Shown here: positions 1 to 64,000 of the stretch, piece after piece | How positions within the stretch are numbered: the first letter of the stretch is position 1 | Layout: each line of letters starts with the position of its first letter | From: Helicobacteraceae bacterium | GTDB taxonomy: Bacteria > Campylobacterota > Campylobacteria > Campylobacterales > Helicobacteraceae | Length of the DNA stretch: 64,000 nucleotides | NCBI GenBank assembly: GCA_017508245.1 | Contig: JAFVZI010000002.1 | Location: forward strand, 1-64,000 | Direction of reading: 5' to 3' | Position numbers and translations under genes: made by a program | Notes under the pieces: model-generated | Told to the model about the DNA's origin: nothing | Database searches by the model: none | What the model saw: only the letters and a program-made list of their open reading frames with translations

Positions 1-29
1 CGGCAGTTCGATTCTGCCTCGAGCCACCA
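1..29 (+). tRNA. tRNA, 3' end only (isotype undetermined)
   Basis: This is the 3' end of a tRNA cut by the window edge. Positions 2-6 (GGCAG) pair with 14-18 (CTGCC) around the T-loop TTCGATT. They are followed by the 3' acceptor strand TCGAGCC, discriminator A and an encoded CCA at 27-29. The missing 5' acceptor strand should read GGCTCGA. The anticodon lies outside the window, so the amino acid cannot be assigned. Confidence 0.85.
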
Positions 30-96
30 TCAAACTTAAAATATAGATTAAGCAATGTTTATTTTGAGTTTCAATTAACAAAATCCTTTGTTTTGT

Positions 97-2097
97 TTAA
101 AATGAAATTTCTTTTATATCTCCCACTTTAAAAAACTCCTCATATATAGTATTTATGAGGAGAATTCTATTTTCTCTTATTTTTTCATCATCGACATTTA
201 TCATCACATTATCAAAGAACTCCTGCAATACTTCTTTGAAGGAAAGTAGCTTTTCTATACGCTCTTTTGGTGCTTTTATATCAAATAATTTAAATTTTTC
301 TAATGCCTCAAATAATGCCCTCTCTTCATCATATTCAAATAAATCTTGTTTGATAGAATCTGCTTTTATTTCTACATTTTTTAGTATATTTGCAATTCTT
401 TTAAATAGAATCTTGAAGTCATTTGGTATAGATTTTAATGCATAAATTTGCTTGATTAGTTCAGCGAAATCTTTTTGATTTGATTTTATTGCTGCATTTA
501 TTATTGATTGATTTACATTAAGCGTACTTTCTAATCTCTCACAGAAAAATTCAAAGATTCTATTTTCATCAATTTTTTTATAATACAGCTTTAGTCGTGG
601 GAGAATATCAAATAAATTAAGTGAAATTTCGAATCTCATTACAATTTTTATGATACCGCTAGCAGCCCTACGAAGTGCAAATGGGTCTTTTGATCCACTT
701 GGAATCTTGTCTATTTCAAAGAGACTCAAAATAGAATCTAATTTATTTGATATAGCAACAATAGCACTCTCCAAACTAGAAGGTAGCAAAGAATCCTCTT
801 GAAGTGGCAAATACTGCTCTTTTATCATTAGTTTTAAAGTTTCATCTGTTGTATAGTATGAACCCATAATCCCTTGCAATTCACCAAATTCACCCACCAT
901 TTCACTAAGTAAATCATTTTTACTAATACTAATTGCCTTCGTAATATTGCTAGAATCTTGATTTAAAATCTCACAAAGTATTGAAGCAATCTTAATCTCC
1001 CTCTCCACCTTATCAAACATAGAATTTTGGATAAATTCTATGTTTTTTAATCTCTCATCGATTTCATCCTTGATAAATGATTTCTTATCATTCTTATAGA
1101 AAAACAACGCATCTTCAAGTCTTGCTTTTAAAACTCGCTCATTACCTTTGGTTATCTCATCAAATGCATCTTTGTCATAACTATTGCATACTACAATAAA
1201 ACCATTGTTTAATTTATCACTTTTATATATCGCAAAATATTTCTGATTAATTTTCATTGAAGTGATGATTACCTCATTTGGTAATTCCAAAAATTTCTCA
1301 TCAAAGCTACCATATAAAGCATTTGGATATTCAGTAATTGCCACCACTTCATCAAGTAAAGTAGAATCTATTTCTACTTTGATATTTTTTTCATTTTCTA
1401 TATCTTTTATTTGCTCTAAAATACGCTCTTTTCGTCTCTCTTGACTATAAATCACACCATTAGATTCTAAAAATTTAAAATATCTATCGATACTATTTAT
1501 TTCTTTTGAATTTTTGCTTCTATGTGGGTGGATAAATGTTGTTTGAGAGAATTTATATTTTTTTTCTATATTTTTTAACTCTATAAATTCATCATCAAAC
1601 AATACAAAAATATTTCTAATTGGACGAATAAAACTAGATTCTACACTGCCCCATTGCATACTTTTACCAAAACTTAAATTTTCTAAAAAATCTATGATAA
1701 TTTTTTCTAGCAAATCGACACTTTTTTTGCCATCTACTATAGTTTTATAATACAAACATTCTTTGCCATTTTTAGTGCTAGTTTGCAAATCATTTATATC
1801 AATATTTAATTTTTTAAGAAAGCTAGTTGTCGCCCCACTTGGATTATTGTCTTTATCATAAGCGATATTCAATGGCGGACCAAAATACTCTAACACTTTG
1901 CTTTCTTGCGTATGAGGAAAATTTTTAGATAAAAGTATCAATCTCCTTGGTGTCCAAAAAAACTCCATATCAGCTTTAATGCTGTTTTCATTTAACAATT
2001 TTTCAAACTTTGACTTGATATTTTTAATCTCTTTTTTTATGGCACTAAAGGGCAATTCTTCTAAAAATATTTCTATTAGCAATGATGAAGCATTCAA
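97..2097 (-). CDS. glyS: Glycyl-tRNA synthetase beta subunit
   Basis: Beta subunit of the bacterial alpha2beta2 glycyl-tRNA synthetase, which charges tRNA-Gly with glycine in the cytoplasm. The start MNASSLLIEIFLEELP is the family's characteristic N-terminus, and GSKDPFALRRAA in the C-terminal half is a second family hallmark. At 666 residues it is near the usual length of about 690. The catalytic alpha subunit gene (glyQ) is not adjacent and must lie elsewhere, as is common in Helicobacter. It is transcribed toward the tRNA fragment at the left edge. The start codon is the ATG at 2097, with an 84-nt gap to the divergent gene at 2182. Confidence 0.96.
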   Translation of the reverse strand: MNASSLLIEIFLEELPFSAIKKEIKNIKSKFEKLLNENSIKADMEFFWTPRRLILLSKNFPHTQESKVLEYFGPPLNIAYDKDNNPSGATTSFLKKLNIDINDLQTSTKNGKECLYYKTIVDGKKSVDLLEKIIIDFLENLSFGKSMQWGSVESSFIRPIRNIFVLFDDEFIELKNIEKKYKFSQTTFIHPHRSKNSKEINSIDRYFKFLESNGVIYSQERRKERILEQIKDIENEKNIKVEIDSTLLDEVVAITEYPNALYGSFDEKFLELPNEVIITSMKINQKYFAIYKSDKLNNGFIVVCNSYDKDAFDEITKGNERVLKARLEDALFFYKNDKKSFIKDEIDERLKNIEFIQNSMFDKVEREIKIASILCEILNQDSSNITKAISISKNDLLSEMVGEFGELQGIMGSYYTTDETLKLMIKEQYLPLQEDSLLPSSLESAIVAISNKLDSILSLFEIDKIPSGSKDPFALRRAASGIIKIVMRFEISLNLFDILPRLKLYYKKIDENRIFEFFCERLESTLNVNQSIINAAIKSNQKDFAELIKQIYALKSIPNDFKILFKRIANILKNVEIKADSIKQDLFEYDEERALFEALEKFKLFDIKAPKERIEKLLSFKEVLQEFFDNVMINVDDEKIRENRILLINTIYEEFFKVGDIKEISF

Positions 2098-2181
2098 TGT
2101 AAATCATCCTTAGTATAAATTTAACACATATTTATATAAAATGAAGTAGAATCTTACCAAAAAATAGCTCAAAGGGTTTGA

Positions 2182-2976
2182 ATGCGTTTTTTTGCATTGC
2201 TATTATTAATCAGTTATCATCTTTATGCAACACCTGTAAATAAATGCGTAAATATAGACAAATTTAGCGACGACCAAAAAGAAATCATTGCTTATGCTTA
2301 TAATTATGGAGAAAAATACGACCTTGGCTTCACACTTGCAGCTATTGCTTGGCACGAATCTTGTGCTGGCGAATATAGAATGAATTTTGCAGATCCAAGT
2401 GCTGGAATATACCACGCACTAATACCTATAGTAATAAAACGATACCAAATGCTAAAAGATACCGGTTTTAATAGAAACGTAATAGGCGAATTGCTCATTA
2501 GAGATGATGAATTTGCATCAAAAGTAGCAATAGATGAATTATTATTTTGGGATAAAGTGCGAAATGGCAATTGGAAAGATATAATAAAATCCTACAACAA
2601 GGGCTATCTTTGGGAGAAAAGCAATAAATATAATGAAATTGCTGAAAATTATTACAACAACATAAAACAAAAAAAAGAGATTCTAGAAAAATACATACCA
2701 AAACATCTAAAAGACTTCAAACTAAAAGAACGCAAACCTATGCTTGCAGATTTCAATTCAAATAGCACAAATCTTGTTACAAGAAAACAAGAAAAAGAAG
2801 TGATTGAAAAAATAAAAAAAATAGAAATAGCAGTATTGAAAAGTGATAGCGAACAAATAGTAAAACAAGCAAAAAAGGATAAAAAAGCAATCATTAGCAT
2901 ATATAATAAAAACGAAGAAGATTCTATAATACACGAAAAAACAATAACCTTACAATCATCATATACAAACAAATAG
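2182..2976 (+). CDS. Periplasmic lytic-transglycosylase-like (SLT fold) protein
   Basis: A secreted 264-residue protein with an N-terminal signal sequence (residues 1-16, ending LYATP). Residues about 35-150 resemble the lysozyme/SLT fold: an alanine-rich helix leads to WHESCAG, where Glu59 would be the catalytic acid, followed later by KSYNKGY. Homologues with this motif cleave or bind peptidoglycan. Beyond residue 160 the sequence is strongly charged and Lys/Glu rich with no recognisable domain. The gene is divergent from glyS and 5 nt ahead of gapA, so the two are probably co-transcribed. The general fold assignment is fairly safe, but enzymatic activity is inferred. Confidence 0.7.
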   Translation: MRFFALLLLISYHLYATPVNKCVNIDKFSDDQKEIIAYAYNYGEKYDLGFTLAAIAWHESCAGEYRMNFADPSAGIYHALIPIVIKRYQMLKDTGFNRNVIGELLIRDDEFASKVAIDELLFWDKVRNGNWKDIIKSYNKGYLWEKSNKYNEIAENYYNNIKQKKEILEKYIPKHLKDFKLKERKPMLADFNSNSTNLVTRKQEKEVIEKIKKIEIAVLKSDSEQIVKQAKKDKKAIISIYNKNEEDSIIHEKTITLQSSYTNK

Positions 2977-2981
2977 GAAAT

Positions 2982-3953
2982 ATGGTGAAAATAGCTATCA
3001 ATGGATTTGGCAGAATCGGGCGGGCTTTTTTTAGAAATTTTTATAAAAAACATCAAAAAAATTTAGAGATAATTCAAATAAATGATATTTGTGATTTTGA
3101 TAAATTGATGTATTTGTTAAAAGAAGATTCTGTATATGGAAGGTTTAAGTGTGATTTCAAATATCAAAACGATGAACTAATTATTGATGGTAAAATAATC
3201 AAACTCAGCTCTTATGAAAATCCGAGAGAATTTATTACAAATGCAGATGTAGTGCTTGAATGTAGTGGTAAATTTAACGATACAAAAAGCCTGCAATCAT
3301 ATATAGATAATGGTGCAAATCTTGTCATTCTTGGAGCTGCACCAAAAGATGATATAAATATCTATATATATGGTGTCAATGAATCTAAATACAGTGGAGA
3401 AAAAATCATATCAAATGCTTCTTGCACTTCAAATGCAATTGCTCCGATAATAAACACAATAAATAAAAAATACAAAATACTAAATGGAAACATATCTATA
3501 ATCCACCCATTTAATAACGACCAATCATTGCTAGATTCAGCACACAAAGATGATATTAGACTTAGTAGAAATGCCACAATAAATATCATACCTACAACAA
3601 GTAGCATAGGAAATGTACTAAAAAAAGTATTTGGTATTAATTTTTATGGAGATTCTATTAGAGTGCCAACTTCAATAGTCGCATTTAGCAATATTGATTT
3701 GGTATTTGATAAAGAAATCTCAAAAGATGAAATATTAAATCTAAATTTTGATAGCAAAATAATAGGCATAGATTCTAATATGCTGGTATCGAGTGATTTT
3801 ATAGGTGATACAAGAAGTGCTATTATCGCAAGTGATTTGGTAAATATCAATGCCAACACCGCTAGAATTGGAATCTGGTTTGATAATGAAAGCGGATACG
3901 CAAATAGATTGCTAGATATGCTAGAAGTAGTACAAAAATATCACAAATTATGA
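2982..3953 (+). CDS. gapA: Glyceraldehyde-3-phosphate dehydrogenase
   Basis: NAD(P)-dependent GAPDH of central carbon metabolism, interconverting glyceraldehyde-3-phosphate and 1,3-bisphosphoglycerate. The Rossmann motif INGFGRIGR lies at residues 6-14, the catalytic cysteine is Cys148 in NASCTSNA, and the base is His175 in HPFNNDQ. The C-terminal signature WFDNESGYANR is present. It is short (323 residues against about 330) and departs from consensus at several signature positions: SCTSN for SCTTN and NESGY for NEWGY. Helicobacter genomes often carry two gap paralogues, and this may be the more divergent one. It follows the transglycosylase-like gene by 5 nt and converges on thiS. Confidence 0.93.
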   Translation: MVKIAINGFGRIGRAFFRNFYKKHQKNLEIIQINDICDFDKLMYLLKEDSVYGRFKCDFKYQNDELIIDGKIIKLSSYENPREFITNADVVLECSGKFNDTKSLQSYIDNGANLVILGAAPKDDINIYIYGVNESKYSGEKIISNASCTSNAIAPIINTINKKYKILNGNISIIHPFNNDQSLLDSAHKDDIRLSRNATINIIPTTSSIGNVLKKVFGINFYGDSIRVPTSIVAFSNIDLVFDKEISKDEILNLNFDSKIIGIDSNMLVSSDFIGDTRSAIIASDLVNINANTARIGIWFDNESGYANRLLDMLEVVQKYHKL

Positions 3954-3957
3954 TTAA

Positions 3958-4158
3958 TCACCCACCACCCACAAATTGTAAAAGCTCTATTCTATCGCTA
4001 TCATTTGGAAAAGTATCATCATATCTTTCTTTTTGAACAAGATTGCTATTTAGTGCTATTGCTACAACTTTAGATTCTATATTCAAAATATCTAAAATCT
4101 CTTGAATGCTTTTATTATCATCAAAATCCATTGCTTGCCCATTTATTATTAAAGTCAT
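3958..4158 (-). CDS. thiS: Sulfur carrier protein ThiS
   Basis: A ubiquitin-fold sulfur carrier of 66 residues. Its C-terminus is adenylated and thiocarboxylated to donate sulfur for the thiazole half of thiamine. The defining features are the small beta-grasp-like sequence starting MTLIINGQ and the C-terminal FVGGG ending in the essential Gly-Gly. It overlaps the end of glmU by 4 nt (ATGA), so it is the distal gene of a glmU-thiS unit. The thiazole synthase gene is not in this window, while thiC lies at about 52 kb, so thiamine genes are dispersed here. Confidence 0.9.
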   Translation of the reverse strand: MTLIINGQAMDFDDNKSIQEILDILNIESKVVAIALNSNLVQKERYDDTFPNDSDRIELLQFVGGG

Positions 4159-5480
4159 TTTTTATCCTTGAAAAATTTATAATAAAATCCTTTCTTATTC
4201 ACTTGCTTTGAGCGAGAAATCACCAAATCACCATCTTTTGCACTTTTTGTTACAGAGCTACCTGCCGCAATCAAGACATTAGATTCTATCTCCAATGGGG
4301 CGATTAACTGCGTATCACTTCCTACAAAGACATTTTTACCAATAACAGTTTTATGTTTTCTAATCCCATCATAATTACAAGTAATCACACCTGCACCAAT
4401 ATTTGTCCCACTATCAATATTGCTATCACCAAGATAGCTTAAATGCCCCGCTTTTACATCATTTAAAATCGAAGCTTTTACCTCCACAAAATTACCAATA
4501 TGAGAATCTTTTATATGAGATTTTGGGCGAATTCTAGCAAATGGTCCTATCGTGCTATTTTCTATCAAGCTATCTTCTATCACACTATTTGACAATATTT
4601 TAGATTCTATTATTTTAGTGCCTTTTTTAAGCACACAATTACTCTCAATCTCACATTCTCCAATAAATTCCACACCAAATTCAATATAAATGCTTTCTGG
4701 AATCCTAAAAATAACACCATCTCTCATGGCCTTTTCTCTTAGTGATTTGAGTATAAAAGATTCTGCTTTTGCTAAATCTAGCTTAGAATTTACGCCAATA
4801 AATTCACTTTCTTTTGCACTCACACCTAGAATCATGCAATTATTTTTATTTGCAAGACCAATAATATCTGTCAAATAATATTCATTTTGATTATTATTTG
4901 ATTCTAGAGTTGGCAGGTATTGCTCCAATATTTCTTTTTTAAAACAATAGATTCCAGCATTTGCAAGATTTGTTTTTCTTATCTTCTCATCTGCATCTTT
5001 TTCTTCAACAATGCCCAACACTTTATTTTCTTTCATAATCACGCGACCATACCCACTTGCATCTTCTAACTCTAATATTCCCATAGTAATATCACAATCA
5101 CTTCTAATGAAACATTGGAGTGTGCTAGCTTGAATAAGTGGCATATCACCGCTTAAGACCAATACTTTATCATACTTTGTATCTATCAAAGATTTTTTAT
5201 TTTCTCCGAAACCTTTCATCAAAGCCCCAGCAGTTCCGGGAAATTCATCATAATTTTGAATATGGATATTTACATTTTGATATATAGAATCTATTTTTTC
5301 TTTTATCAAATTAGCTTCATTATACAAGACTATGTGCAAATCATCACTCAATTTGCATACTTCATCAATGATGCAAAAAAGCATTTCTTTGCCACAAATT
5401 TTGTGTAGAACTTTTGGAATCTTAGATTTCATTCTAGTGCCAAAACCTGCACTCAAAATAATGATTGATACCGGATTCAA
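4155..5480 (-). CDS. glmU: Bifunctional N-acetylglucosamine-1-phosphate uridyltransferase / glucosamine-1-phosphate acetyltransferase
   Basis: Makes UDP-GlcNAc, the precursor of peptidoglycan and LPS, by acetylating glucosamine-1-phosphate and then uridylating it. The N-terminal pyrophosphorylase domain begins IILSAGFGTRMKSKIPK (nucleotide-binding loop). From about residue 245 on, hexapeptide repeats of the left-handed beta-helix acetyltransferase are visible (NSVIEDSLIENSTIGPFARI, then GHLSYLGDSNIDSGTNIGAG). The 441-residue length fits. Its stop overlaps the thiS start by 4 nt. The 133-nt gap to motA holds divergent promoters. Confidence 0.97.
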   Translation of the reverse strand: MNPVSIIILSAGFGTRMKSKIPKVLHKICGKEMLFCIIDEVCKLSDDLHIVLYNEANLIKEKIDSIYQNVNIHIQNYDEFPGTAGALMKGFGENKKSLIDTKYDKVLVLSGDMPLIQASTLQCFIRSDCDITMGILELEDASGYGRVIMKENKVLGIVEEKDADEKIRKTNLANAGIYCFKKEILEQYLPTLESNNNQNEYYLTDIIGLANKNNCMILGVSAKESEFIGVNSKLDLAKAESFILKSLREKAMRDGVIFRIPESIYIEFGVEFIGECEIESNCVLKKGTKIIESKILSNSVIEDSLIENSTIGPFARIRPKSHIKDSHIGNFVEVKASILNDVKAGHLSYLGDSNIDSGTNIGAGVITCNYDGIRKHKTVIGKNVFVGSDTQLIAPLEIESNVLIAAGSSVTKSAKDGDLVISRSKQVNKKGFYYKFFKDKK

Positions 5481-5530
5481 GTTTGTTTCTCCATAATAGA
5501 TTGTTTATACAATTTTAACACAATAAAAGA

Positions 5531-5536
5531 TATAAT
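5531..5536 (+). promoter_or_regulatory. Candidate -10 box for motA-motB-fliP
   Basis: A perfect TATAAT hexamer 78 nt ahead of motA, in AT-rich sequence with no clear -35 box. Housekeeping promoters of Helicobacter typically depend on the -10 alone. No sigma28 (CGATWT with upstream TAAA) or sigma54 (GG-N10-GC) element was seen here. Assignment is by motif only. Confidence 0.4.
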
Positions 5537-5613
5537 GATTTTTGGTTTGATTTTGTATAGAATATATCTTTAATATTTTTCTAAAAATTCACAATCTTTA
5601 GGAGTTTGTATTT

Positions 5614-6378
5614 ATGGATTTAGGGACTATTATAGGGCTATTCCTAGTTACCATCCTCTTATTTGGAGCGATGATGATGGGTGTTGGGGTTCAAGCATAT
5701 ATTGACTTCCCATCGCTACTCATTACCGTTGGAGGTTCTATATGTGCATTATTTATAGCTTTCAAACTAGAAAATATGAGAAATATATTCAAATATTTGG
5801 GCATTGCATTTAAACCACATCAATACAACATTCCTGCATTAATCAAAACAATTGTTGAATATGCAATCAAAGCAAGAAGAGATGGGATACTCTCACTTGA
5901 ACAAAATGTAAATCAAGAAGAAAATGATTTTCTTAGAAAAGGGCTGAGTATGGCTGTTGATGGGTCGGAGCCAGATTCCATAAGAGAGTTATTAGAAATA
6001 GATATGGAACAATCACTAAATAGACATAACAGTAATGCAGAAATATTTGATACTTGGGCTGCATTTGCTGGTGCTTATGGTATGCTTGGGACGCTAATTG
6101 GTCTTGTTGCAATGCTTATGAATATGAGCGATCCTAGCTCTATTGGACCTGCTATGGCTATTGCTTTGATTACTACATTTTATGGCTCGTTGATAGGAAA
6201 TGTTATCGGGTCACCTATTGCAAATATATTGAAAATACGAGCACAAGATGAAGCACTTATGAAATTATTAGTAATTGAAGGCATCATATCCATTCAAGCA
6301 GGTGATAATCCAAGAGTGCTAGAGACAAAGCTATTGTCATTTTTGCCTCCAAATCAAAGATTGAGTCAATTTGATTGA
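5614..6378 (+). CDS. motA: Flagellar motor stator protein MotA
   Basis: Stator subunit of the proton-driven flagellar motor, forming the ion channel with MotB in the inner membrane. The sequence shows the expected four membrane segments: about residues 5-22, 35-52, 150-168 (AAFAGAYGMLGTLIGLVAML) and 180-200. The cytoplasmic loop between segments 2 and 3 is the part that contacts FliG. Length 254 residues is typical. A Shine-Dalgarno-like AGGAG lies at about 5600, ahead of the ATG. The gene heads a motA-motB-fliP unit and overlaps a possible TTG start of motB. Confidence 0.96.
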   Translation: MDLGTIIGLFLVTILLFGAMMMGVGVQAYIDFPSLLITVGGSICALFIAFKLENMRNIFKYLGIAFKPHQYNIPALIKTIVEYAIKARRDGILSLEQNVNQEENDFLRKGLSMAVDGSEPDSIRELLEIDMEQSLNRHNSNAEIFDTWAAFAGAYGMLGTLIGLVAMLMNMSDPSSIGPAMAIALITTFYGSLIGNVIGSPIANILKIRAQDEALMKLLVIEGIISIQAGDNPRVLETKLLSFLPPNQRLSQFD

Positions 6379-6380
6379 TT

Positions 6381-7094
6381 ATGGTGAAAAAAATCAATAC
6401 CAAAAATAAAAACAGAGGCGGCTTACCATTATGGCTTGGAACATTTGGGGATTTGATGAGTTTGCTTTTGACTTTTTTTATATTACTTTTATCTATGGCT
6501 ACATTTGATGCAAAAAAATTAATAGAAGCAGAAGCCAGTATAAAGGGTGCATTAAGCATATTGGAAGGTGGCATCAAAATTGAACCAAGCAAAAATAGAA
6601 TCACACTTCCAGCTGATATAGTGGTGCCTCCAGAATATGCCGAAGAAGTAAGGTTGCTACAACAAACAATTATCGATTTTAATGATATGCCAAATATATC
6701 GAGGGGACAAGCAGATATGGTAGGCGATGGACTTAATGGGTTTATTATCACACTTCCAGCAAATATAGTATTTGATGAAAATTTTAAAATCAATGAAGAT
6801 ACAAAATTATTTCTAAAAAGAGTATCGCAAATAATAGAAAAACTGCCACAAAATACACAAATTGAAGTATTAGGAAAATCAAACATATCAACAACATTAA
6901 TCAATTTAGAGAGAGCCTCAAAAATAGCACTTAGTGTCGGCAGAGAACTTCATAATCTAAACATAAATGGCAATAAGATAAATATCATAGGTGTAGAAGA
7001 TAAAAGTCTGTCAAAAGATGAAGATTTATTAAATATTAGATTCTATACAAAAGAAATACAAATAGATAAAACAAAAGGATTGCTAGATAAATAA
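6381..7094 (+). CDS. motB: Flagellar motor stator protein MotB
   Basis: Stator partner of MotA: one N-terminal membrane helix followed by a periplasmic OmpA-like domain that anchors the stator to peptidoglycan. The helix carries the channel aspartate in FGDLMSLLLTFF (Asp24 counting from the ATG at 6381). The OmpA-like region follows from about residue 130 (NGFIITLPANIVFDENF). A TTG at 6375 overlaps the motA stop and would add two residues. I prefer the ATG at 6381, but both are possible. The stop overlaps the fliP start (TAATG), indicating translational coupling. Confidence 0.93.
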   Translation: MVKKINTKNKNRGGLPLWLGTFGDLMSLLLTFFILLLSMATFDAKKLIEAEASIKGALSILEGGIKIEPSKNRITLPADIVVPPEYAEEVRLLQQTIIDFNDMPNISRGQADMVGDGLNGFIITLPANIVFDENFKINEDTKLFLKRVSQIIEKLPQNTQIEVLGKSNISTTLINLERASKIALSVGRELHNLNINGNKINIIGVEDKSLSKDEDLLNIRFYTKEIQIDKTKGLLDK

Positions 7095-7909
7095 TGATTA
7101 GAATCATATTTGTTTTAATGTGTATTTTTAGTATTTCATTTGGTGCAACTGATGAAAATGGGAATCTAATAATGCAAGAAGTCCCACAGCCTACACAAGG
7201 CTCACAAATAACAAATCCTGCACTAAATTCACCAACGATACCAACAATAGATTTATCACTTACTGCACCAAGTGAGCCCGGTGATTTGGTAACGACACTA
7301 AATATTGTAATAATCATTACATTACTTGTTTTAGCTCCATCTTTGATACTCGTGATGACTAGTTTTGTAAGAATTATAATAGTGCTTGGCTTTTTAAGAG
7401 TTGCTATGGGAACACAACAATCCCCACCAACGCAGATTCTAGTATCACTTGCATTGATTCTTACATTTTTTATCATGGAGCCAGTTGGTAGAGATGGCTA
7501 TGAGGCAGGGATAAAACCATATATAAACAAAGAAATTCCATATGATGAAGCTTTCGTGCAAACGATAAAGCCATTTAAAGAATTTATGATGAAAAATACA
7601 AGAGAAAAGGATTTGGCGCTATTTTTTAGAATAAGAAATTTAGAAAATCCACAAACAATAGACGATGTGCCACTTACGATTCTTATGCCTGCATTTATGA
7701 TAAGCGAGCTAAAAACAGCATTTCAAATAGCATTTTTATTGTACTTGCCATTTTTGGTTATTGATATGGTTGTAAGCTCACTACTTATGGCACTTGGAAT
7801 GATGATGTTGCCGCCTATTATGATATCTTTGCCATTTAAGATTCTAATATTTATCCTTGTTGATGGATTTAACCTATTGGTAGGGAATCTCATAAATAGC
7901 TTTAAATGA
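7094..7909 (+). CDS. fliP: Flagellar type III export protein FliP
   Basis: Core membrane protein of the flagellar type III secretion export gate, forming the FliP5FliQ4FliR1 channel. An N-terminal signal sequence (to about residue 17, SISFGA) precedes a polar linker and then four membrane segments. The hallmark FliP block VMTSFVRIIIVLGFLRVAMGTQQSPP is at about residues 88-113. PAFMISELKTAFQIAFLLYLPF in the second half is equally characteristic. At 271 residues it is slightly longer than E. coli FliP (245), owing to the linker. Its start overlaps the motB stop. Confidence 0.96.
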   Translation: MIRIIFVLMCIFSISFGATDENGNLIMQEVPQPTQGSQITNPALNSPTIPTIDLSLTAPSEPGDLVTTLNIVIIITLLVLAPSLILVMTSFVRIIIVLGFLRVAMGTQQSPPTQILVSLALILTFFIMEPVGRDGYEAGIKPYINKEIPYDEAFVQTIKPFKEFMMKNTREKDLALFFRIRNLENPQTIDDVPLTILMPAFMISELKTAFQIAFLLYLPFLVIDMVVSSLLMALGMMMLPPIMISLPFKILIFILVDGFNLLVGNLINSFK

Positions 7910-7985
7910 TAAATTACATAATGCATACATTTTTGATAGAATAGCAAGCCAAAAAGTTTAAGTAAATTTTATTATTTGGAGGTAT

Positions 7986-8360
7986 ATGATGAAAAAAATA
8001 ATATGTATCATTGCAATGCTTGGGATAAGTGTATTTGCCAGTGAAGATGTTTTTGATAGAATTGATAAGAATATCAACAAAGGCGAAACTAAGATTGACA
8101 AATCTATTGATAAAACAAAGAAAACAATAAGCAACAAAAAAGATAAGATGAATAAATCTATTGATGGTATAAAGAAAACAATAAGTAATAAAAAAGATAA
8201 GGTGGATAAGTCTATTGATAACACGAAAACATCCATAAGTAATAAAAAAGATAAAGTGAATGAAACGATAAGTAATAGTAAGAAAAAAATAGAAAGCAAA
8301 AAAGAAGCTTTAGAAAATGATGAATTAATAAATAGCACTAAAAATCTTTTATCAAAATAA
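7986..8360 (+). CDS. Lysine-rich periplasmic repeat protein, function unknown
   Basis: A 124-residue exported protein I do not recognise. A short signal peptide (residues 1-18, ending SVFAS) is followed by an almost entirely Lys/Ser/Asn/Asp mature chain. It contains three tandem 18-residue units at residues 43-60, 61-78 and 79-96, sharing the core TISNKKDK. The composition predicts a basic, helical or disordered periplasmic protein that could bind an acidic polymer, but that is inference. A good Shine-Dalgarno (GGAGG at 7978-7982) precedes two tandem ATGs. It stands alone, 76 nt after fliP, with a terminator-like hairpin downstream. Confidence 0.75.
   Translation: MMKKIICIIAMLGISVFASEDVFDRIDKNINKGETKIDKSIDKTKKTISNKKDKMNKSIDGIKKTISNKKDKVDKSIDNTKTSISNKKDKVNETISNSKKKIESKKEALENDELINSTKNLLSK
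8112..8273 (+). repeat. Three tandem 54-bp coding repeats
   Basis: Three in-frame 54-bp units encode KTKKTISNKKDKMNKSID and two close variants. The DNA is similar between units but diverged at several positions, so these are not perfect repeats. Copy number could still change by recombination or slippage, which would alter protein length in 18-residue steps. Confidence 0.75.
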
Positions 8361-8366
8361 AAATCC

Positions 8367-8395
8367 TAGTGATAGATTCTTGAAAGCTATCACTA
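8367..8395 (+). terminator. Terminator-like hairpin after the repeat protein
   Basis: A perfect 9-bp inverted repeat, TAGTGATAG (8367-8375) and CTATCACTA (8387-8395), with an 11-nt loop, just past the stop codon at 8360. No clear T-run follows, so efficiency as an intrinsic terminator is uncertain. Confidence 0.4.
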
Positions 8396-8469
8396 ATAAA
8401 CTGCTTCAAAACACCTTCTGCAAACATCCAACTTAATACTTAAAAAAATATCCACGTAATATAAATTTT

Positions 8470-8505
8470 ATATTATTATAATAATATTTTGATAATAATT
8501 ATTAT
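8470..8505 (+). promoter_or_regulatory. Two adjacent AT-rich palindromes resembling Fur operators
   Basis: Upstream of the TonB-dependent receptor are a perfect 18-bp palindrome, ATATTATTATAATAATAT (8470-8487), and a perfect 14-bp palindrome, ATAATAATTATTAT (8492-8505). The second closely matches the described H. pylori Fur box, TAATAATnATTATTA, apart from the central n. Both lie 20-55 nt ahead of the ATG at 8526, where a bound repressor would block transcription. Regulation by Fur, and so by iron, is inferred from motif and gene content. Another metalloregulator with an AT-rich site is possible. Confidence 0.6.
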
Positions 8506-8525
8506 TTTTTTTAAGAAGGGCTTTA

Positions 8526-11159
8526 ATGAAAAGAATAGTTATCATAATATTTCCACTACTAATACCATCGCTTCTACTTGGAGAAAATATCAATAGTGGC
8601 AATGAAGTGCAAGATGTAGATTTGGGGAATCTCACAACAACAAAATCAAAATTTACATATAAAGAAGGAAATAGTATATCTTCTAAGATATTGGGCAATA
8701 TTTCTAGCAATAATGGCGATTTAACAAGTGCATTAAAAATGCTACCAAATGTGCAATATAGTAATAACGAGCTAAGTTCGCAGAATCCCGGTGAAATTGA
8801 TCCTGCAAATATAAGCATTAGTGGGGGATTGTATTATCAAAATAATTTTTTAATCGACGGCTTTAATATGAATAATGACCTAGACCCAAGTATCAGCGGA
8901 GGCAATTACAATCCAGCAGCCATTACTGCACTTCCGGGACAGAGTCAAGGATTGAATATCGATTTATCGTTGATAGAATCTATTAATGTGCAAGATTCTA
9001 ATATATCAGCTGCATACGGGCATTTTAGTGGTGGAGTTATAGAGGCAACTACAAAAAAAGCAACAAAACTATTTGGTGCACAAATAAGCTACCAAATCAC
9101 GCAAGGGGATGCTAAGGAAGATAAATTTAGTCTGACAAGTTATCATATCAATAATGATAATAAAGATAGTTTTCTAAATTCTACAAGTGCCTCAAACCAA
9201 CCGAAATTTATCAAGCATTTTTTTAGAGCAAGTTTGGAATCAAAATTTAGCCAAAATGCAGGTATTGTAGCCAGTTTTACTACAACACAAAGTTTTATCC
9301 CGCTTAATGCATATGCACAATCTTATATCACAACAACCCTAGATAGTGCGACAAAAACACAAAAAAGACAAAGTTACAACTTATACATAAAAGGTAATTA
9401 CGATATAAACGACAACATAAGTTTAGAAGCAAGTTATGCGTATATGCCACAATACAATCAATATTTCATTGTAAATACAAAAGATTCTGGTTTTGATATG
9501 CTAAGTGGCGGTCATCAAGCTGGTATCAAAGCCTCATTTGATAATAATATCGGTGTTTTAAAAATGCAAAGCAATCTTAATATTTTAGAAAATTCCAGAA
9601 CAAATTCAAAAAATAATATGTATATATGGAGTTATAGTACTACAAAAAACTGGAATCCAAATGGTAATAATAGTGAAGGTGGATATGGAAATGTAAATAG
9701 CAAGCAAATCACGTCTAATATAAAAATAACGCAAGAGTTCGACAACATCTCATTTAAAAATATAGAAAATTTTTTTAATATTGGATTAGAGCTTGGATTT
9801 ACAAATGCATACTATGAGCGACTAGAAGATACTATAGTTGGCTTTAAAGCTACGAAGTCTGCCACTAATTGCACAGATACACAATGGTGTGACCCTGGGA
9901 CAATTACATCAGGCAATAACGGCAAACACCAATATATTTCACGAGCTACTCTCTATCAAGCAGGTAAAATAGAGCTAAATAGCCTAGAAATTGGTTCATT
10001 TGTAGAAGATGATATTAATATAAATTTGGATAATTTTGGGGAGATACAAACTAGAATCGGACTTAGATTTGATTTTGATACATATATGCACAAAGTCGCA
10101 TTAGCACCGAGATTTAGCTTCAATTACAATGCACCTTGGATGAAAAATAATTTTGATACTTTATTTATCTTTGGAGCAAATAGGTATTATGGGCGAAATA
10201 TATTTGCATATAGGCTGATGGATGCTAGAAGTTCATTGCAATGGACACTAAATAGAAGCGATGAAACTACAAAATGGGAAAATGCGACAAAAACACAAAA
10301 TAAAAATGATACTAATTTTAATAAACTAAAGATTCCATATTCTGATGAACTAACAGGTGGAATCTCACAAAATTTAGATTTATTTAATATTACTATGAAA
10401 TACATACATCGATTTGGAAGAGACGAAATTAGAAGAATGTGTCAAAAAGCAGATGGAAGTTTTAGTAGCTTAAGCTGTACTTCAAATTCGACTTTAACAA
10501 AAGACACTCGATATATATATACCAATAAGGGCGTAAGTGAATCCTCTATCATAAGCTTGATATTGCAAAATCAAAAATCATTGGATTTTTTTGGTTTGCA
10601 GAATCTCTTTTTGATTGCTTTTGATTACACGAATACCAAAAGAAACTATGAGGATTATAACGACAACATAGCACTTAATGAGCTTTCAAATCAATTGATA
10701 AGCTACAATGGAAAGATTATTCCATATGCAGAAAAACCAACAGATAATTTTACGCGTCCATATACATTAAAATTAAACACTACACATAGTTTAAGTGTAT
10801 GGAAAACGACTTTTTTCTTGAATAATTTATTTCGTTATAGAAGTGGATACAATGCTATGATTAGCGTAAAAGATAATTACAAAGATAGCGTTATGATTGA
10901 TGGCACATTAACAAAAATAGACACCTTTAAACCATATAAAGTAAAAGCTGCTTTTACTTGGGATATTCGATTTGGAATAGAACTTGATATATATAGTGGT
11001 AATAAGATGTTTATACACCTCGATATTACTAATGTTTTGAACGCTAAAAACATTGCGATAATGAATCTTAGTAATTACACACCAACAGCTGGTGCCACTG
11101 CCACACCTGTGTATGAAATAGGAAGACAAATTTATTTGGAATTTGGATATAAATTTTAA
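8526..11159 (+). CDS. TonB-dependent outer-membrane receptor
   Basis: An 877-residue outer-membrane receptor for energy-dependent uptake. A signal peptide (residues 1-19) is followed by a plug domain at about residues 45-180: ISGGLYYQNNFLIDGFNMNN is the FQIDG-like element, and SAAYGHFSGGVIEATTK ends the plug. A 22-strand-type barrel then runs to the C-terminal aromatic signature LEFGYKF. Extracellular loops contain cysteine pairs (NCTDTQWC and a second pair near residues 639-651). The ligand is not readable. The putative Fur sites suggest iron, haem or another metal complex. It is followed after 14 nt by a di-haem peroxidase. No tonB/exbB/exbD is nearby. The ATG has a good Shine-Dalgarno (AAGAAGGG). 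Confidence 0.9.
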   Translation: MKRIVIIIFPLLIPSLLLGENINSGNEVQDVDLGNLTTTKSKFTYKEGNSISSKILGNISSNNGDLTSALKMLPNVQYSNNELSSQNPGEIDPANISISGGLYYQNNFLIDGFNMNNDLDPSISGGNYNPAAITALPGQSQGLNIDLSLIESINVQDSNISAAYGHFSGGVIEATTKKATKLFGAQISYQITQGDAKEDKFSLTSYHINNDNKDSFLNSTSASNQPKFIKHFFRASLESKFSQNAGIVASFTTTQSFIPLNAYAQSYITTTLDSATKTQKRQSYNLYIKGNYDINDNISLEASYAYMPQYNQYFIVNTKDSGFDMLSGGHQAGIKASFDNNIGVLKMQSNLNILENSRTNSKNNMYIWSYSTTKNWNPNGNNSEGGYGNVNSKQITSNIKITQEFDNISFKNIENFFNIGLELGFTNAYYERLEDTIVGFKATKSATNCTDTQWCDPGTITSGNNGKHQYISRATLYQAGKIELNSLEIGSFVEDDININLDNFGEIQTRIGLRFDFDTYMHKVALAPRFSFNYNAPWMKNNFDTLFIFGANRYYGRNIFAYRLMDARSSLQWTLNRSDETTKWENATKTQNKNDTNFNKLKIPYSDELTGGISQNLDLFNITMKYIHRFGRDEIRRMCQKADGSFSSLSCTSNSTLTKDTRYIYTNKGVSESSIISLILQNQKSLDFFGLQNLFLIAFDYTNTKRNYEDYNDNIALNELSNQLISYNGKIIPYAEKPTDNFTRPYTLKLNTTHSLSVWKTTFFLNNLFRYRSGYNAMISVKDNYKDSVMIDGTLTKIDTFKPYKVKAAFTWDIRFGIELDIYSGNKMFIHLDITNVLNAKNIAIMNLSNYTPTAGATATPVYEIGRQIYLEFGYKF

Positions 11160-11173
11160 TTAAAGGTTATTTT

Positions 11174-12229
11174 ATGAAAAAGATTCTCATGCTAATATCT
11201 ACACATTTCTTATTTGCCATTGATTTTGATGCATTGAGAGAAATGTATCTAAAAGATTCAATATATTGGGAGAAACCATTGATTGATGAAAGAGTGGAAT
11301 ACGAAGAAATCAATGCACTTCCTTCAACACCCCCATATCCAGCATATAATCCGTATTCACAATCCAAAGTGGAACTTGGAAAAAAGCTATTTAATGAACC
11401 AAAATTATCATCATCCAATCAAATTGCTTGTGCAACTTGTCATGATAGAGAATTTGGATTTGGTGATGGGAGAAAGCTAAGCTACGGACACGATAGAGCC
11501 ATAGGCAGACGAAATGCACAAAGTGTGGCAATGAGTGCATTTGGGGTTGAAAAATTTTGGGATGGTAGAGCAAAAAATTTAGAGGAGCAAGCCCTAATGC
11601 CCATAGAGGACAAGAAAGAAATGGCTTTTGATGCAGATTCTGCGGCAAAAAAGTTAAATGGTATTTTAGAATACAAAATCCTATTTAAAAAGGCATTTGG
11701 TACAGAAAATATAACAAAGGAGCTTATCGGTCAAGCAATAGCAACATACGAAAGAAGCTTAATGCCAAAAAACACGAAGTTTGATAGATTTATGAGAGGT
11801 AATAGCAAGGCCATGAATGACAAAGAAATCTGGGGACTGCATATATTTCGAACCAAAGCTAGATGTATGAATTGTCATCATGGTGTTGCCTTTAGCGACC
11901 AAAAATATCACAATCTAGGATTGACATACTATGGCAGAAAATTCGAGGATTTGGGCAGGTATTTAGTAACAAAAAATATCGATGATGTCGGTGCATTTAA
12001 AACGCCAAGCCTCCGACTCATATCACAAACAAAGCCATATATGCATAATGGATTGTTTCCAAGCTTAAAAGGTGTTTTAAACGCCTACAATGCAGGAATG
12101 TTTCACCCAAAACCAAATGACAATCAAAAAAATGATATATTGTTTCCAAAGACTTCGCCACTGCTCCACAAACTAAATCTTACCACGGAAGAATTAGACG
12201 CATTAGAAGCATTTTTAAACACACTTTAA
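11174..12229 (+). CDS. Di-haem cytochrome c peroxidase / MauG-family protein
   Basis: A periplasmic c-type di-haem enzyme of the bacterial cytochrome c peroxidase/MauG superfamily, 351 residues with a signal sequence (residues 1-15). Two CxxCH haem sites are present: CATCH at 86-90 and CMNCH at 231-235. Family motifs KFWDGRAKNLEEQALMP (about 127-143) and KPYMHNGLFPSLKGVLNAYN near the C-terminus are clear. Members either reduce H2O2 or, as in MauG and MbnH, oxidise residues of a partner protein. Position in a receptor operon, 14 nt downstream and behind Fur-like sites, suggests a job in metal acquisition or oxidative modification rather than respiration. That is inference. Confidence 0.9.
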   Translation: MKKILMLISTHFLFAIDFDALREMYLKDSIYWEKPLIDERVEYEEINALPSTPPYPAYNPYSQSKVELGKKLFNEPKLSSSNQIACATCHDREFGFGDGRKLSYGHDRAIGRRNAQSVAMSAFGVEKFWDGRAKNLEEQALMPIEDKKEMAFDADSAAKKLNGILEYKILFKKAFGTENITKELIGQAIATYERSLMPKNTKFDRFMRGNSKAMNDKEIWGLHIFRTKARCMNCHHGVAFSDQKYHNLGLTYYGRKFEDLGRYLVTKNIDDVGAFKTPSLRLISQTKPYMHNGLFPSLKGVLNAYNAGMFHPKPNDNQKNDILFPKTSPLLHKLNLTTEELDALEAFLNTL

Positions 12230-12242
12230 TACTTCTTAAAAA

Positions 12243-14063: not shown

Positions 14064-14064
14064 A

Positions 14065-14493: not shown

Positions 14494-14516
14494 AGAATCT
14501 GCCCTAAAATCAGAAT

Positions 14517-14795: not shown

Positions 14796-14862
14796 TTATT
14801 CAGATTCTCCAATCTATAGATTCCATATCAAAGACTAAATTGCTCAACTTCATATCCAAGCA

Positions 14863-15068: not shown

Positions 15069-15271
15069 ATCTACAATAATCCTACAATTTTAGATTCTGC
15101 ATACATTATATAATCTAAAAACTTAAAAAACTAAACAAACTATAATCATACTCGGTTTATTATAAATACGAATTTTAGATATTTGTTAAAAAAAAATTTT
15201 AATTGTATAATTCAAAATTTTACGAATTATTAATTAAGCTAAAATATTCATTGATGCAACAGAGGTAGTAT

Positions 15272-49901: not shown

Positions 49902-50815
49902 ACTCGACTTTGTTTTACACTTTTTCTTTGCTTAACTATCCCATATCTTTTGCGTTTCTCCCATAAACTTTTGCGACTAATTCCTAGCTCTTTTGCAAGC
50001 TCAATATCAGAATATAATCCTTCATATTTTGCAATCATCATCTTCTCATAATCTCTTATTGGCATTATTTCACCACCCATATCCATACAACTTTTAGCTA
50101 CAGAAATATCTACGATATTGCTAAATGTAATTTCTTCCTGAGAAACAAATGAAAACAATACATTTTGTTTATGGAGCTTGTCTATAAGCTCATTTCTTTC
50201 ACTTTTTTTAATCTGCTCTAGCCCTGTTAGATACACGATTTCATTAACGTTATTATTGATATTTAAAATACTCTTCCAATCAACTTCCTTTAGAGATAAA
50301 AAATTGAAATGTATATTTTTTAGTCTTGCATATCTCATAGCATATATATCCGCACTTCTTTGAGAACTACTTCTTATGATAAATGGCAAGTTATAAGTGA
50401 ATGGAAATGGAGTATTTAGTATTCCCTCAACAAATTCAAAATAATTCTTATAAAAAACAACTTCTTTTTGAAGTCTATCAAACTCTCTATAATGCTCTAT
50501 TTTTCTAATCAATTCATCTACAATTATAGGCTTAATGACATAATCGTGCATTCCAGCCTTAAACATTTTGGTAACAGTATCATCATTTATATATTTAATC
50601 ATTACTATAATGATGCTTTCTTTAAAATGTTTGATTGCATTAGTGCAAGAACCTTGACAAAGATCATAAGACATCAAAACAATATCAAATGCATTATTTT
50701 TATCAAGTTTAAGATTTAAATCTTTTGAAATAACACATTCATAGCCTCTATCTTCTAGCTTATTGCTAATACTTTGTGCCAGATAGGTATCATTTTCTAT
50801 AATAAGTATTTTCAT
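49898..50815 (-). CDS. Atypical orphan response regulator (HP1021-like)
   Basis: A two-domain regulator: receiver-like fold at residues 1-120 and a Fis-type helix-turn-helix at the C-terminus (IELAKELGISRKSLWEKRKR). The acid pocket ENDT (7-10) remains, but the acceptor position carries Ser49 (DIVLMSYDL) in place of Asp, so normal phosphorylation is unlikely. The neighbouring cysteines in DLCQGSC could serve redox sensing. In H. pylori the orthologue HP1021 sits next to ispDF (HP1020), binds oriC and responds to redox state. The same neighbourhood here supports orthology. Confidence 0.88.
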   Translation of the reverse strand: MKILIIENDTYLAQSISNKLEDRGYECVISKDLNLKLDKNNAFDIVLMSYDLCQGSCTNAIKHFKESIIIVMIKYINDDTVTKMFKAGMHDYVIKPIIVDELIRKIEHYREFDRLQKEVVFYKNYFEFVEGILNTPFPFTYNLPFIIRSSSQRSADIYAMRYARLKNIHFNFLSLKEVDWKSILNINNNVNEIVYLTGLEQIKKSERNELIDKLHKQNVLFSFVSQEEITFSNIVDISVAKSCMDMGGEIMPIRDYEKMMIAKYEGLYSDIELAKELGISRKSLWEKRKRYGIVKQRKSVKQSRV

Positions 50816-50842
50816 ACAATAACCAACCTCAAAAATTTAGTG

Positions 50843-51967
50843 TTACAAAAAGAGCTTTAAAGATACATTAGAGCTTGCACAAATCCCCTCACTTCTACCT
50901 ACAAAACCCAATTTTTCCATTGTAGTAGCCTTGATATTGATATATTGACCTTGTATATTTAAAATATTACTAAAAATTTCTATCATTTTATCTTTGTATG
51001 GAAGAATTTTTGGCTTTTGTGCCATTATCATAATATCAACATTGACAATCCTAAAACCTACACTACTAATAAAATCAACAACTTCTTTTAATAGAATCTT
51101 AGAATCTATATTATCGTATTTTTGGTCATCTGGAGGAAACCACTCACCAATATCACCCGCTCCAATCGCCCCAAGAAGTGCATCACAAAGAGAGTGAATA
51201 ACAACATCTCCATCACTATGAGCTTCTAATCCAAAATCACAAGGTATCTTCACGCCACCTAAATACATATCCTTGTCTTTACAGAATCTATGGACATCAA
51301 ATCCATATCCAACAAAAGTATCATTATTACTACTAATATTTAGATTCTCTAAATCTTGCAAAAAAGTAACTTTATTTAGAATCTTAGAGCCTTTTATAGC
51401 TACAACCTTACCACCATAATTATTAATAGCACTACTTTCATCACTAAAATCGCCAAGCTTCACAGCCTCTAATAAAGTTGCTACCCTAGAAATTTGTGGA
51501 GTTTGGACTAAGTAAATATCGTCTCTACTTAAATAATTTTTACTGCCATTAGATTCTAAAAATATCGTATCGCTCACACCAATTGTAGGGATTAGGCAAT
51601 CAATAGAATCCAAATTATAAGCAAAAAGGTCATCTAGCACTTTAAAATCAAGATTGCATCTAGCAGCATCACTAACTGCGACAAATTTACTATCTACATA
51701 ATTTAGTGCATTTTGCAGAGATTCTTGCCTGCTATTTCCACCTTGCACTATTTCATAATCACAGAATCTTTTCATATAAGCAACATCTCGCTGCGAGGCA
51801 GTTATTATTACTTTGGAAAATTTATATCTCTTTTGAAATAAATCCGCTACATAAAGCCACATCGGCTTATCATCTATTCTAATCCATTGTTTTTTAACAG
51901 ATATATTTTCCCTAAATCTTACACTCTCCCCTGCACTCATAATAATTAAAGTGATATTTTTTCTCAC
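50843..51967 (-). CDS. ispDF: Bifunctional IspD/IspF isoprenoid enzyme
   Basis: Fusion of two steps of the MEP pathway. The N-terminal cytidylyltransferase (about residues 1-210) has LIIMSAGESVRFRENISVKK and SDAARCNLDF. The C-terminal 2C-methyl-D-erythritol 2,4-cyclodiphosphate synthase (about 218-374) has GYGFDVHRFCK and GLEAHSDGDVVIHSLCDALLGA with its zinc ligands, and ATTMEKLGFVGRSEGI. Length 374 is normal for Campylobacterota. It lies upstream of the HP1021-like gene with a 27-nt gap. Confidence 0.96.
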   Translation of the reverse strand: MRKNITLIIMSAGESVRFRENISVKKQWIRIDDKPMWLYVADLFQKRYKFSKVIITASQRDVAYMKRFCDYEIVQGGNSRQESLQNALNYVDSKFVAVSDAARCNLDFKVLDDLFAYNLDSIDCLIPTIGVSDTIFLESNGSKNYLSRDDIYLVQTPQISRVATLLEAVKLGDFSDESSAINNYGGKVVAIKGSKILNKVTFLQDLENLNISSNNDTFVGYGFDVHRFCKDKDMYLGGVKIPCDFGLEAHSDGDVVIHSLCDALLGAIGAGDIGEWFPPDDQKYDNIDSKILLKEVVDFISSVGFRIVNVDIMIMAQKPKILPYKDKMIEIFSNILNIQGQYINIKATTMEKLGFVGRSEGICASSNVSLKLFL

Positions 51968-54453: not shown

Positions 54454-54467
54454 AAAGAATAGATTGC

Positions 54468-54495
54468 TTTAAAGATTCTATTAAGAATCTTTAAA
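54468..54495. terminator. Terminator built from inverted AGAWTCT words
   Basis: TTTAAAGATTCT (54468-54479) and AGAATCTTTAAA (54484-54495) form a perfect 12-bp stem with an ATTA loop, 14 nt beyond the mrp stop. T-rich sequence follows (54499-54512). A second stem, TTAGAATC...GATTCTAA at 54512-54531, follows and may terminate the converging barrel gene. The arms contain the word that is enriched across the window. Confidence 0.65.
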
Positions 54496-54552
54496 TAAGA
54501 ATTTTATTTTATTAGAATCTTTAGATTCTAAGATTCTAGAATCTAAAAATAT

Positions 54553-62542: not shown

Positions 62543-62653
62543 AAAATCTTAACACCTTAATCTTTGAAATTTTTACATCATTATAACATAGCTTTATTAA
62601 GTAGCCTTACTTATGCTAGAATCTAAAGAATAGTTAAACTTAGTGGATAGATT

Positions 62654-62821
62654 ATGCAAAAAATAACACTAGAAGACTTTATTAAAAAACCAAAAGATTC
62701 TAATACAGTGGTAACGCTAAATAACGAAGATTTATTTATATTTCTTAGAAGTTCGAAAGAAATATTAGAATTAATCAATCCTAAAAAACCACAAAAAGAG
62801 CAAAAATGCACGGAAAAATAG
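62654..62821 (+). CDS. Short unrecognised protein
   Basis: A 55-residue open frame, MQKITLEDFIKKPKDSNTVV onward, charged and without a membrane segment, ending in KPQKEQKCTEK. It lies between divergent ftsK and the large gene at 62806, which it overlaps by 16 nt, so the two are probably translationally coupled. I do not recognise it. The ATG is preceded by only weak ribosome-binding sequence (AGTGGA). Coupling and coding-like composition support it being real. Confidence 0.6.
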   Translation: MQKITLEDFIKKPKDSNTVVTLNNEDLFIFLRSSKEILELINPKKPQKEQKCTEK

Positions 62822-64000
62822 TGCAGTATTCACACACAACTGGTGTAGGGACGATTATAAATGCTTCAAAAAAACTCTTTGATTTTAAAATTGCTAGCTG
62901 GCACGACAATACAAAGATTCCAGAAATAAATCTATTAGTAGAATTTAAATTAGAAGATGAAAATCGCAATGTGATTGATATAAGAAGCTCAAAATATCAA
63001 GAATTTGGTAGTGATAGCATCGTAAAAGAAAGAGATTTTTGGAAAACAAACACAGACGAAGAGCTGGAAAAACTAGAATCTAATGTATTTGACAAATTGA
63101 TTGCAGAAACATACAAAAAAACAGATTATTCAAAATTGTCAGTCATTCCAACAAGCATTTCCATAGATAAGTTTATACAATACTACTTTGAAAATGAAGT
63201 AAAAATCATAAATTCAGCTTACAAATTGCCAATTGATGGTTATGAAAAATTAAATTATAGCATTGTAAATAGATTTATCAAACGAACTTTAGATTCCCTA
63301 ATTTGTGTTGATAGAAGGATTACAAAAGATACATTTTCTATGTATTTACAGATTCTAGGAAAATTGCAATATTTCATGACACCATTTTATTTAGCAAATC
63401 AAAATACAAAAAAAGTATTTGAAGAGCATTTTTTGCCACAACAGCTTTACTTAAATGCTGCGAATAGAAAATTGATAAATCTAAAAGATGATATTTTAAA
63501 ACTAGAATCTAAAAAGAAAAATGCAAAAAGCGAGATTCACTCTATACAGACAAAGCTAACATCTGCTGGAATAAAAAACGTGCAAATATTAAAAGAAAGG
63601 CTATCAAAGCTAAATTATTTATACAAAGAATGCACAGAAAAAATAATAGTGCTAACAAAAATAAAAGATAGAGTATCAAAACTAATAGAAATATTTAAAG
63701 AAAACCATGAGAAAGATTTTATTGCTAGATTTGATAAGACTAAAGAACAAATATTCGAACATATTAAAAACTCCCTAAATATCACAATTACATCACTAGA
63801 CAACAAAATATGGAAGCTGGGAATGGCGAGCGAACCTGTAAAAAATCAGTTTTTAAAACTCCAAAGCAGCTATGCATTCTGCACACTTGCTTTTATGCAA
63901 CAATATATAAAAAGGCTGGACTCTTCAAAATTAAACGATAATGATAGGTTGCTAAATATCTATATCAATAAGTATAGAGAAAGAAATACAAAAAAGATAC
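62806..64000 (+). CDS. Unrecognised protein with cold-shock-like N-terminus and coiled coil, 3' end off the window
   Basis: Open from the ATG at 62806 to the window edge (398 codons, no stop). The first about 65 residues, MHGKIVQYSHTTGVGTIINA onward, resemble a divergent cold-shock/OB-type domain (G-x-I-x5-G-x-G-x-I). Residues about 85-215 are mixed helix, and about 220-310 form a Lys/Glu-rich coiled coil. After that the helices continue to the edge. There is no signal or membrane segment. It overlaps the small upstream gene by 16 nt. A nucleic-acid-binding role is only a guess from the N-terminus. Confidence 0.8.
   Translation, partial: MHGKIVQYSHTTGVGTIINASKKLFDFKIASWHDNTKIPEINLLVEFKLEDENRNVIDIRSSKYQEFGSDSIVKERDFWKTNTDEELEKLESNVFDKLIAETYKKTDYSKLSVIPTSISIDKFIQYYFENEVKIINSAYKLPIDGYEKLNYSIVNRFIKRTLDSLICVDRRITKDTFSMYLQILGKLQYFMTPFYLANQNTKKVFEEHFLPQQLYLNAANRKLINLKDDILKLESKKKNAKSEIHSIQTKLTSAGIKNVQILKERLSKLNYLYKECTEKIIVLTKIKDRVSKLIEIFKENHEKDFIARFDKTKEQIFEHIKNSLNITITSLDNKIWKLGMASEPVKNQFLKLQSSYAFCTLAFMQQYIKRLDSSKLNDNDRLLNIYINKYRERNTKKI

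Follow-up and report, generated by a model that had tools for sequence, protein, structure and literature searches.

Among the repeated genome words described so far, the nearest precedent in form and number to the word treated here is the highly iterated palindrome HIP1 (GCGATCGC) of cyanobacteria. The accessible part of PMC4390886 reports HIP1 as palindromic, present in thousands of copies (300–2700 per Mb), patchy among relatives and prone to deviation at its outer letters. Neisseria and Pasteurellaceae carry DNA uptake sequences (DUS) and uptake signal sequences (USS), and such words form hairpins in Haemophilus terminators (PMC5217627, in its accessible part). Campylobacter jejuni, according to partial texts of PMC10046745, PMC8468864 and PMC8437040, imports only DNA methylated at RAATTY. 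Here we analysed a 64,000-nt stretch of Helicobacteraceae bacterium DNA (the window), in which inspection of the letters had singled out the heptamer AGAWTCT, along with 836 kb of its own genome (57% complete) and related genomes. We show that Helicobacteraceae have a family-level genome word, RGAWTCY (mostly as AGAWTCT), on which directional pressure acts at the level of DNA; the family was assigned from its named members.

RGAWTCY resembles HIP1 in all four respects, but it has another sequence, occurs in another phylum, is a 7-mer with a central W and R/Y ends, and is denser in the most enriched genome; moreover, none of the methyltransferase types tested tracks it. With the methylated RAATTY of C. 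jejuni (CtsM; partial sources as above) it shares the R...Y palindrome and the class of uptake machinery, but in the nine genome sets tested RAATTY falls short of expectation (0.5–0.8; 515 versus 724 in samples of the own genome). Like DUS and USS, it is abundant in genomes with competence genes and forms inverted pairs in a convergent spacer; unlike them, it is shorter, palindromic, not evenly spaced and several times denser. Open-literature searches, with most subscription papers and REBASE outside their reach, returned no description of the word, nor is it named in the accessible part of PMC5217627, a study that covers H. hepaticus.

An over-represented palindrome in the window and its genome

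AGAWTCT occurs 173 times in the window (positions 1–64000, both strands by virtue of the palindrome), i.e. once per 370 bp, compared with a mean of 17.3 and a maximum of 35 in 100 dinucleotide-preserving shuffles. Under window-built Markov models of order 2 and order 3, no 7-mer has a higher z-score than AGAATCT/AGATTCT. The eye count of the original prediction, 28 copies in the first ~10.6 kb, is exact (28 up to position 10,606). Enrichment extends beyond the window: the whole 836 kb contain 2032 copies versus 248 of the reversed word, or 2430 per Mb. The over-representation is thus confirmed.

Codon usage had been dismissed as an explanation, and rightly so. The genes of the window hold 148 copies versus 28.9 (standard deviation 5.0, largest 45 of 300) after synonymous-codon shuffles that keep proteins and codon usage fixed, with an excess in each codon phase (22/40/86 versus 3.9/5.4/19.6), while eight control words of the same design show 3–18 copies versus 6.6–20.0. 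The word is also denser outside genes: 25 copies not wholly inside genes amount to 5.4/kb of non-coding DNA, versus 2.5/kb in genes. Within ftsY (17520–18371, + strand; TIGR00064), the three copies quoted earlier are in place, in three codon phases, and we found a fourth (starts at 17633, 17735, 18112 and 18162; phases 2, 2, 1 and 0). Codon or dipeptide composition as the sole cause is contradicted by these shuffles and by the loss and gain rates given below.

The copy numbers expected from window-built Markov models are 17.6, 22.7, 30.3 and 71.4 for orders 1 to 4. The order-5 model predicts 167, which is formally the outcome that had been named as a refutation, although from a window model and not a genome-wide one; this near agreement arises because the 6-mers of the model already hold most of AGAWTCT, and we do not take it as a refutation. 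At the highest order the excess shifts to the core (GAATC, 333 versus 185; AGATTC, 253 versus 149; each the top of its list).

The enriched unit is the palindrome RGAWTCY, so that the name AGAWTCT captured the main form of a wider set. In 144 kb sampled from the own genome, AGAWTCT stands at 9.0-fold, AGAWTCC (with its complement GGAWTCT) at 3.9-fold and GGAWTCC at 1.9-fold of expectation, and YGAWTCR (0.30-fold) and RGASTCY (0.28-fold) are depleted. Around the GAWTC core, only a left purine and a right pyrimidine are favoured. One-letter deviations in the window concentrate at the outer letters (GGAATCT 6.1-fold, AGAATCC 3.6-fold) and not at the inner ones (0 to 1.4). There is an additional preference for A after the word, strongest in genome G313 (0.73); apart from this following A, the window flanks are near background, and a repeat family was rejected on that basis. 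The two spellings occur 199 and 167 times on the + strand of the own-genome samples. Neither the occurrence in both orientations nor a lack of polarity counts as independent evidence, since the two spellings are reverse complements and the palindrome entails both. Save for the W, the word equals its reverse complement, which excludes strand polarity of the kind known for Chi or FtsK-orienting polar sequences (KOPS).

Gains, losses and distribution in the family

To follow the word through substitutions, the window was aligned to genomes G305 (58 kb, ~88% identity) and G286 (62 kb, ~80%), with G286 as the outgroup and with substitution rates per codon position and base; amino-acid constraint beyond codon position lies outside this model. 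Across the three syntenic genomes, AGAWTCT suffered 41 losses versus 100.5 expected and made 22 gains versus 9.2, and RGAWTCY 35 losses versus 101.7 and 29 gains versus 12.4. GAWTC with other flanks showed 30 gains versus 45.4 expected and 10 losses versus 19.2. Third codon positions alone gave 26 losses versus 64.1. Pooled, 200 permuted control word pairs had a loss ratio of 1.00 and a gain ratio of 0.90; single control words scatter (loss ratio 0.17–1.94 for 77 words, gain ratio 0–2.24 for 197 words) because their counts are small. Thus, in this one three-genome comparison, the word is maintained, being lost at ~0.34–0.41 of the expected rate and gained at ~2.3 times that rate. Irrespective of function, substitutions here give a direct measure of the pressure on a DNA word (RGAWTCY losses 0.34, gains 2.3), and across genomes this pressure accompanies altered amino-acid neighbours.

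Raw AGAWTCT counts in 60 genomes drawn from the family (labelled G; their genera, g) range from 140 to 16,584. Ratios to dinucleotide expectation, obtained for 34 genomes from sampled stretches of 14–240 kb each, run from 0.6 to 34 and make the family a natural series in which to find the responsible gene. At the low end (0.6–2.0) are G086, the sole g4 genome sampled (20 kb), six g82 genomes, G199, G073 (whose LysS is identical to that of H. cholecystus), G060, G322 and G330. All six sampled g82 genomes are unenriched or weak (0.97–2.0), as are three of four sampled g3 genomes at 1.1–1.2, with the fourth at 2.0; G199 stands at 1.5, and four other g6 genomes at 3.4–5.7. Elsewhere, G300 has 2.0, fifteen others 4.5–12, G325 18 and G313 34. 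The last of these (2.7 Mb; L039, L189, L190, L273–L278, L452) carries 16,584 copies, i.e. 6 per kb, ~1 per 163 bp or ~6140 per Mb. For the other four g4 genomes, raw counts alone give 0.3–1.0 of the reversed word. Genus g4 is probably the gastric Helicobacter (H. pylori group). In an order-wide set of 298 genomes, where the reversed-word control is too variable for ratios, raw copies number 30 to 1412 (highest in G001) in the 269 genomes outside the family and 140 to 2833 in the 29 inside.

Sharing by close relatives, which had been expected, therefore extends to most of the family but not to g4, g82, most sampled g3 or G199. That all 12 non-g4 genera are enriched was suggested by the reversed-word control and fails for g82 and most sampled g3 once dinucleotides are modelled. 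A midpoint-rooted LysS tree of 35 rows places g82 beside g6 and the single g4 row among other genera at an open fork; if this placement holds, enrichment has disappeared, or else arisen, on more than one occasion.

Across the family, enrichment accompanies changed dipeptide usage. The commonest phase of the word encodes Asp-Ser and Glu-Ser; relative to expectation, these stand at 2.7 and 1.8 in G313, compared with 0.7 each in H. cholecystus. In the 34 samples, word enrichment rises with the abundance of Asp-Ser (rho 0.82) and of Glu-Ser (0.72), and the reversed control Ser-Asp gives −0.43; these samples are related, so the correlations overstate independence.

A candidate uptake tag and competing explanations

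For the function of the word, the original prediction had offered DNA uptake, chromosome organisation or a link to methylation. Our leading reading, to which we lean only tentatively, is that RGAWTCY serves as a self-recognition tag for natural transformation. An uptake machine resembling type II secretion systems and type IV pili (T2SS/T4P-like, Cts type) would favour tagged DNA, either in uptake or in retention; homologous imports would spread the word through populations and make it more frequent; and in the g4 lineage, which lacks the machine, the pressure would have been lifted. The tag may or may not require adenine methylation of GAWTC, as RAATTY does in C. jejuni. The fuller proposal, that in enterohepatic Helicobacteraceae RGAWTCY is a family-specific transformation password read by the T2SS/T4P-like machine, driven by itself to extreme density, reshaping proteins and lost when the gastric lineage lost the machine, is possible and put forward with more reserve.

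Gain and retention of the word, hairpins in one convergent spacer and the distribution of the machine point towards uptake. The T2SSF domain (PF00482) was found in 55 of 55 non-g4 genomes and in none of the five g4 genomes. In the own genome, secretin, GspE and GspF genes and unnamed open reading frames (ORFs) are clustered beside ffh (L059:9695–18395, contig C12), in an order resembling that of the Campylobacter cts cluster. A VirB4-type ATPase of type IV secretion systems (T4SS) occurs in all three g4 genomes tested, in none of five g1 genomes and in eight of 24 non-g4 genomes; H. pylori takes up DNA via the ComB T4SS (accessible part of PMC6247508). Loss of ComEC was ruled out as the cause of unenriched genomes, its domain being matched in 59 of 60 genomes, with the 57%-complete own genome as the sole miss.

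Several observations weigh against an uptake tag. The coincidence of g4 with T2SSF absence is a single evolutionary event. Genus g4 lacks word and machine alike, but in g82, most sampled g3 and G199 the machine is present and enrichment is not clear. In all five g82 genomes examined (G318 was left out) and in G199, the secretin, GspE and GspF genes form open frames side by side. No broken uptake operon was found in these genomes; the one deviation, a point in favour of the uptake reading, is the secretin frame of G199, which at 418 aa is shorter than those of two enriched g6 genomes (490 and 509). In G013 (g2, enriched-type by raw counts), stop codons interrupt the ComEC match. Secretin and GspE were not within the 15–20 kb taken from G073, G060 and G322, and the same holds for the enriched G313 and G324; secretin was not found near GspF in the enriched G236 and G274. 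One word per 370 bp, or ~1 per 163 bp in G313, would also exceed one word per imported fragment. Uptake words of H. influenzae are spaced more evenly than random, and copies in the window are slightly clustered (coefficient of variation 1.16 versus 0.99 for random placement, P 0.017). Copies at least 350 bp from the next one are lost at 0.25 of expectation (4 versus 16.3) and those within 120 bp at 0.49 (28 versus 57.6), but this better retention of isolated copies is non-significant (P 0.10). Low-copy single control words reach loss ratios down to 0.17 (5% quantile 0.45). Finally, no clear contrast between self and foreign DNA emerged, as likely mobile loci are near genome density: 25 non-g4 restriction-modification loci (of 30 taken) hold 189 copies versus 149.5 at genome density and 24 by chance, and nine non-g4 VirB4 loci 61 copies versus 72.5 (P 0.10) and 9.5 by chance. 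Two of these nine have one copy each versus ~7. That mobile genes are poor in the word was thus not clearly seen in either class.

Methylation offers a HIP1-like alternative, a close competitor though somewhat less likely than the uptake tag: a methyltransferase modifying the GAWTC core, together with repair or recombination favouring methylated sites, would make and keep copies locally, and the word might be a functionless by-product. Palindromy, a density in or above the HIP1 range (2430 per Mb in the own genome, ~6140 in G313) and the concentration of deviations at the first and last letters, as in the accessible account of HIP1, all argue for it. So do available parts of two reports, on GANTC being 99.7% N6-methyladenine (m6A) in H. 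typhlonius (PMC4705304) and on a GAWTC-specific m6A enzyme in Moorella (PMC6700114). The own genome encodes a CcrM/HinfI-type methyltransferase (L194:1363–2508, contig C8; its C-terminal RAMA match is below the cut-off), which by its sequence is expected to methylate GANTC. On the other side, no tested methyltransferase type tracks enrichment over the 60 genomes (PF01555, PF02086 and two PF01555 subfamilies, with other families not searched and different enzymes conceivably serving different genera). Near full-length CcrM-type relatives (at least 47% identity) occur in 11 of the 60 genomes, including two of the unenriched genus g4, with partial ones in G319 and the g4 genome G177; a conserved, small orphan-like PF01555 enzyme of ~220 residues (alignment A2) is present in 28 of them, and a Mann-Whitney test of its presence against the raw ratio gives P 0.73; D12 (PF02086) is absent from 10 and PF01555 from three of the 60. 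D12, PF01555, A2 and CcrM/HinfI-type enzymes were each rejected as the sole cause. A binding site for a nucleoid or chromosome-maintenance protein, under weak selection per copy, is unlikely. The wide cover (the longest gap is 6.6 kb in ~1.06 Mb of stretches), a loss suppression of a size that would fit weak per-site selection and the association with protein sequence speak in its favour, and of the proposed chromosome-organising functions a nucleoid protein is the one that stays compatible with a palindrome. Yet 2000–16,000 copies exceed any organising sites known to us, and the low ratios in nested lineages (g82, G199) would require loss of the protein. Very improbable, lastly, is a reading of the excess as a by-product of composition at the codon, dipeptide or low-order level, or of the avoidance of other words, GATC among them. 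The order-5 prediction and the anticorrelation of GATC abundance with AGAWTCT enrichment (rho −0.65, n = 34; −0.74, n = 26) agree with it; the synonymous shuffles, the greater density outside genes and the departure of losses and gains from base- and codon-position-specific rates contradict it. Moreover, GATC loss would free too few bases for a tenfold excess, and G155 and G236 are word-enriched with GATC at 1.41 and 1.18 of expectation.

If RGAWTCY is an uptake word, it would be the first for the family as far as the searches show, would bear on species barriers to gene exchange among gut Helicobacter and would provide a DNA tag for the genetics of hard-to-transform species.

Spacers, gaps and related words

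In the window, a convergent intergenic spacer (54454–54552) carries six copies that pair into two predicted terminator-like hairpins (~54456–54510 and ~54520–54547; −25.1 kcal/mol, z −3.4, none of 200 shuffles as stable). Five copies lie in another convergent spacer (42411–43308) and four in a divergent one (14494–15271). Overall, convergent spacers have 8.0 copies per kb and others ~4 (24 copies in all, including the six of spacer 54454–54552).

The longest word-free stretch of the window spans 3.5 kb over lnt and two adjoining ORFs (47592–51093), where ~0.013 such gaps are expected at random; the G305 region aligned to it also has a word-free gap, of 2.2 kb. The longest gaps in the ~1.06 Mb of stretches measure 1.0 to 6.6 kb, and those beyond random placement are one of 6.6 kb in L096, two of 2.4 and 2.0 kb in G313 and that of the window. 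At least 120 stretches of viral contigs held three clustered words; the 80 inspected resembled chance occurrences or repeat arrays, and none was recognised as a phage of these hosts.

The A2 enzyme (L203:1411–2067) has a DPQY motif, is the only PF01555 match in four of the eight genomes searched and shows weak similarity to the structures of MboIIA and CcrM. For the orphan ATTAAT enzyme of H. pylori, the accessible part of PMC12239561 gives no link to the word.

GATC stands at 0.17 of expectation in samples of the own genome, at 0.3–1.4 in unenriched genomes and at 0.01 in G313, where it is nearly eliminated (5 versus 430 expected in 180 kb). Among 16 tetranucleotide palindromes, avoidance clearly tracks AGAWTCT enrichment only for GATC and GGCC; CATG and GTAC are likewise avoided. 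Depletion of YGAWTCR is also seen in several unenriched relatives. In G300, a high-GC member of the family (L263–L272), the top words are CGATTC, GATTCC and AGAATC/AGAATCG, which may represent a dialect of the word or a codon effect.

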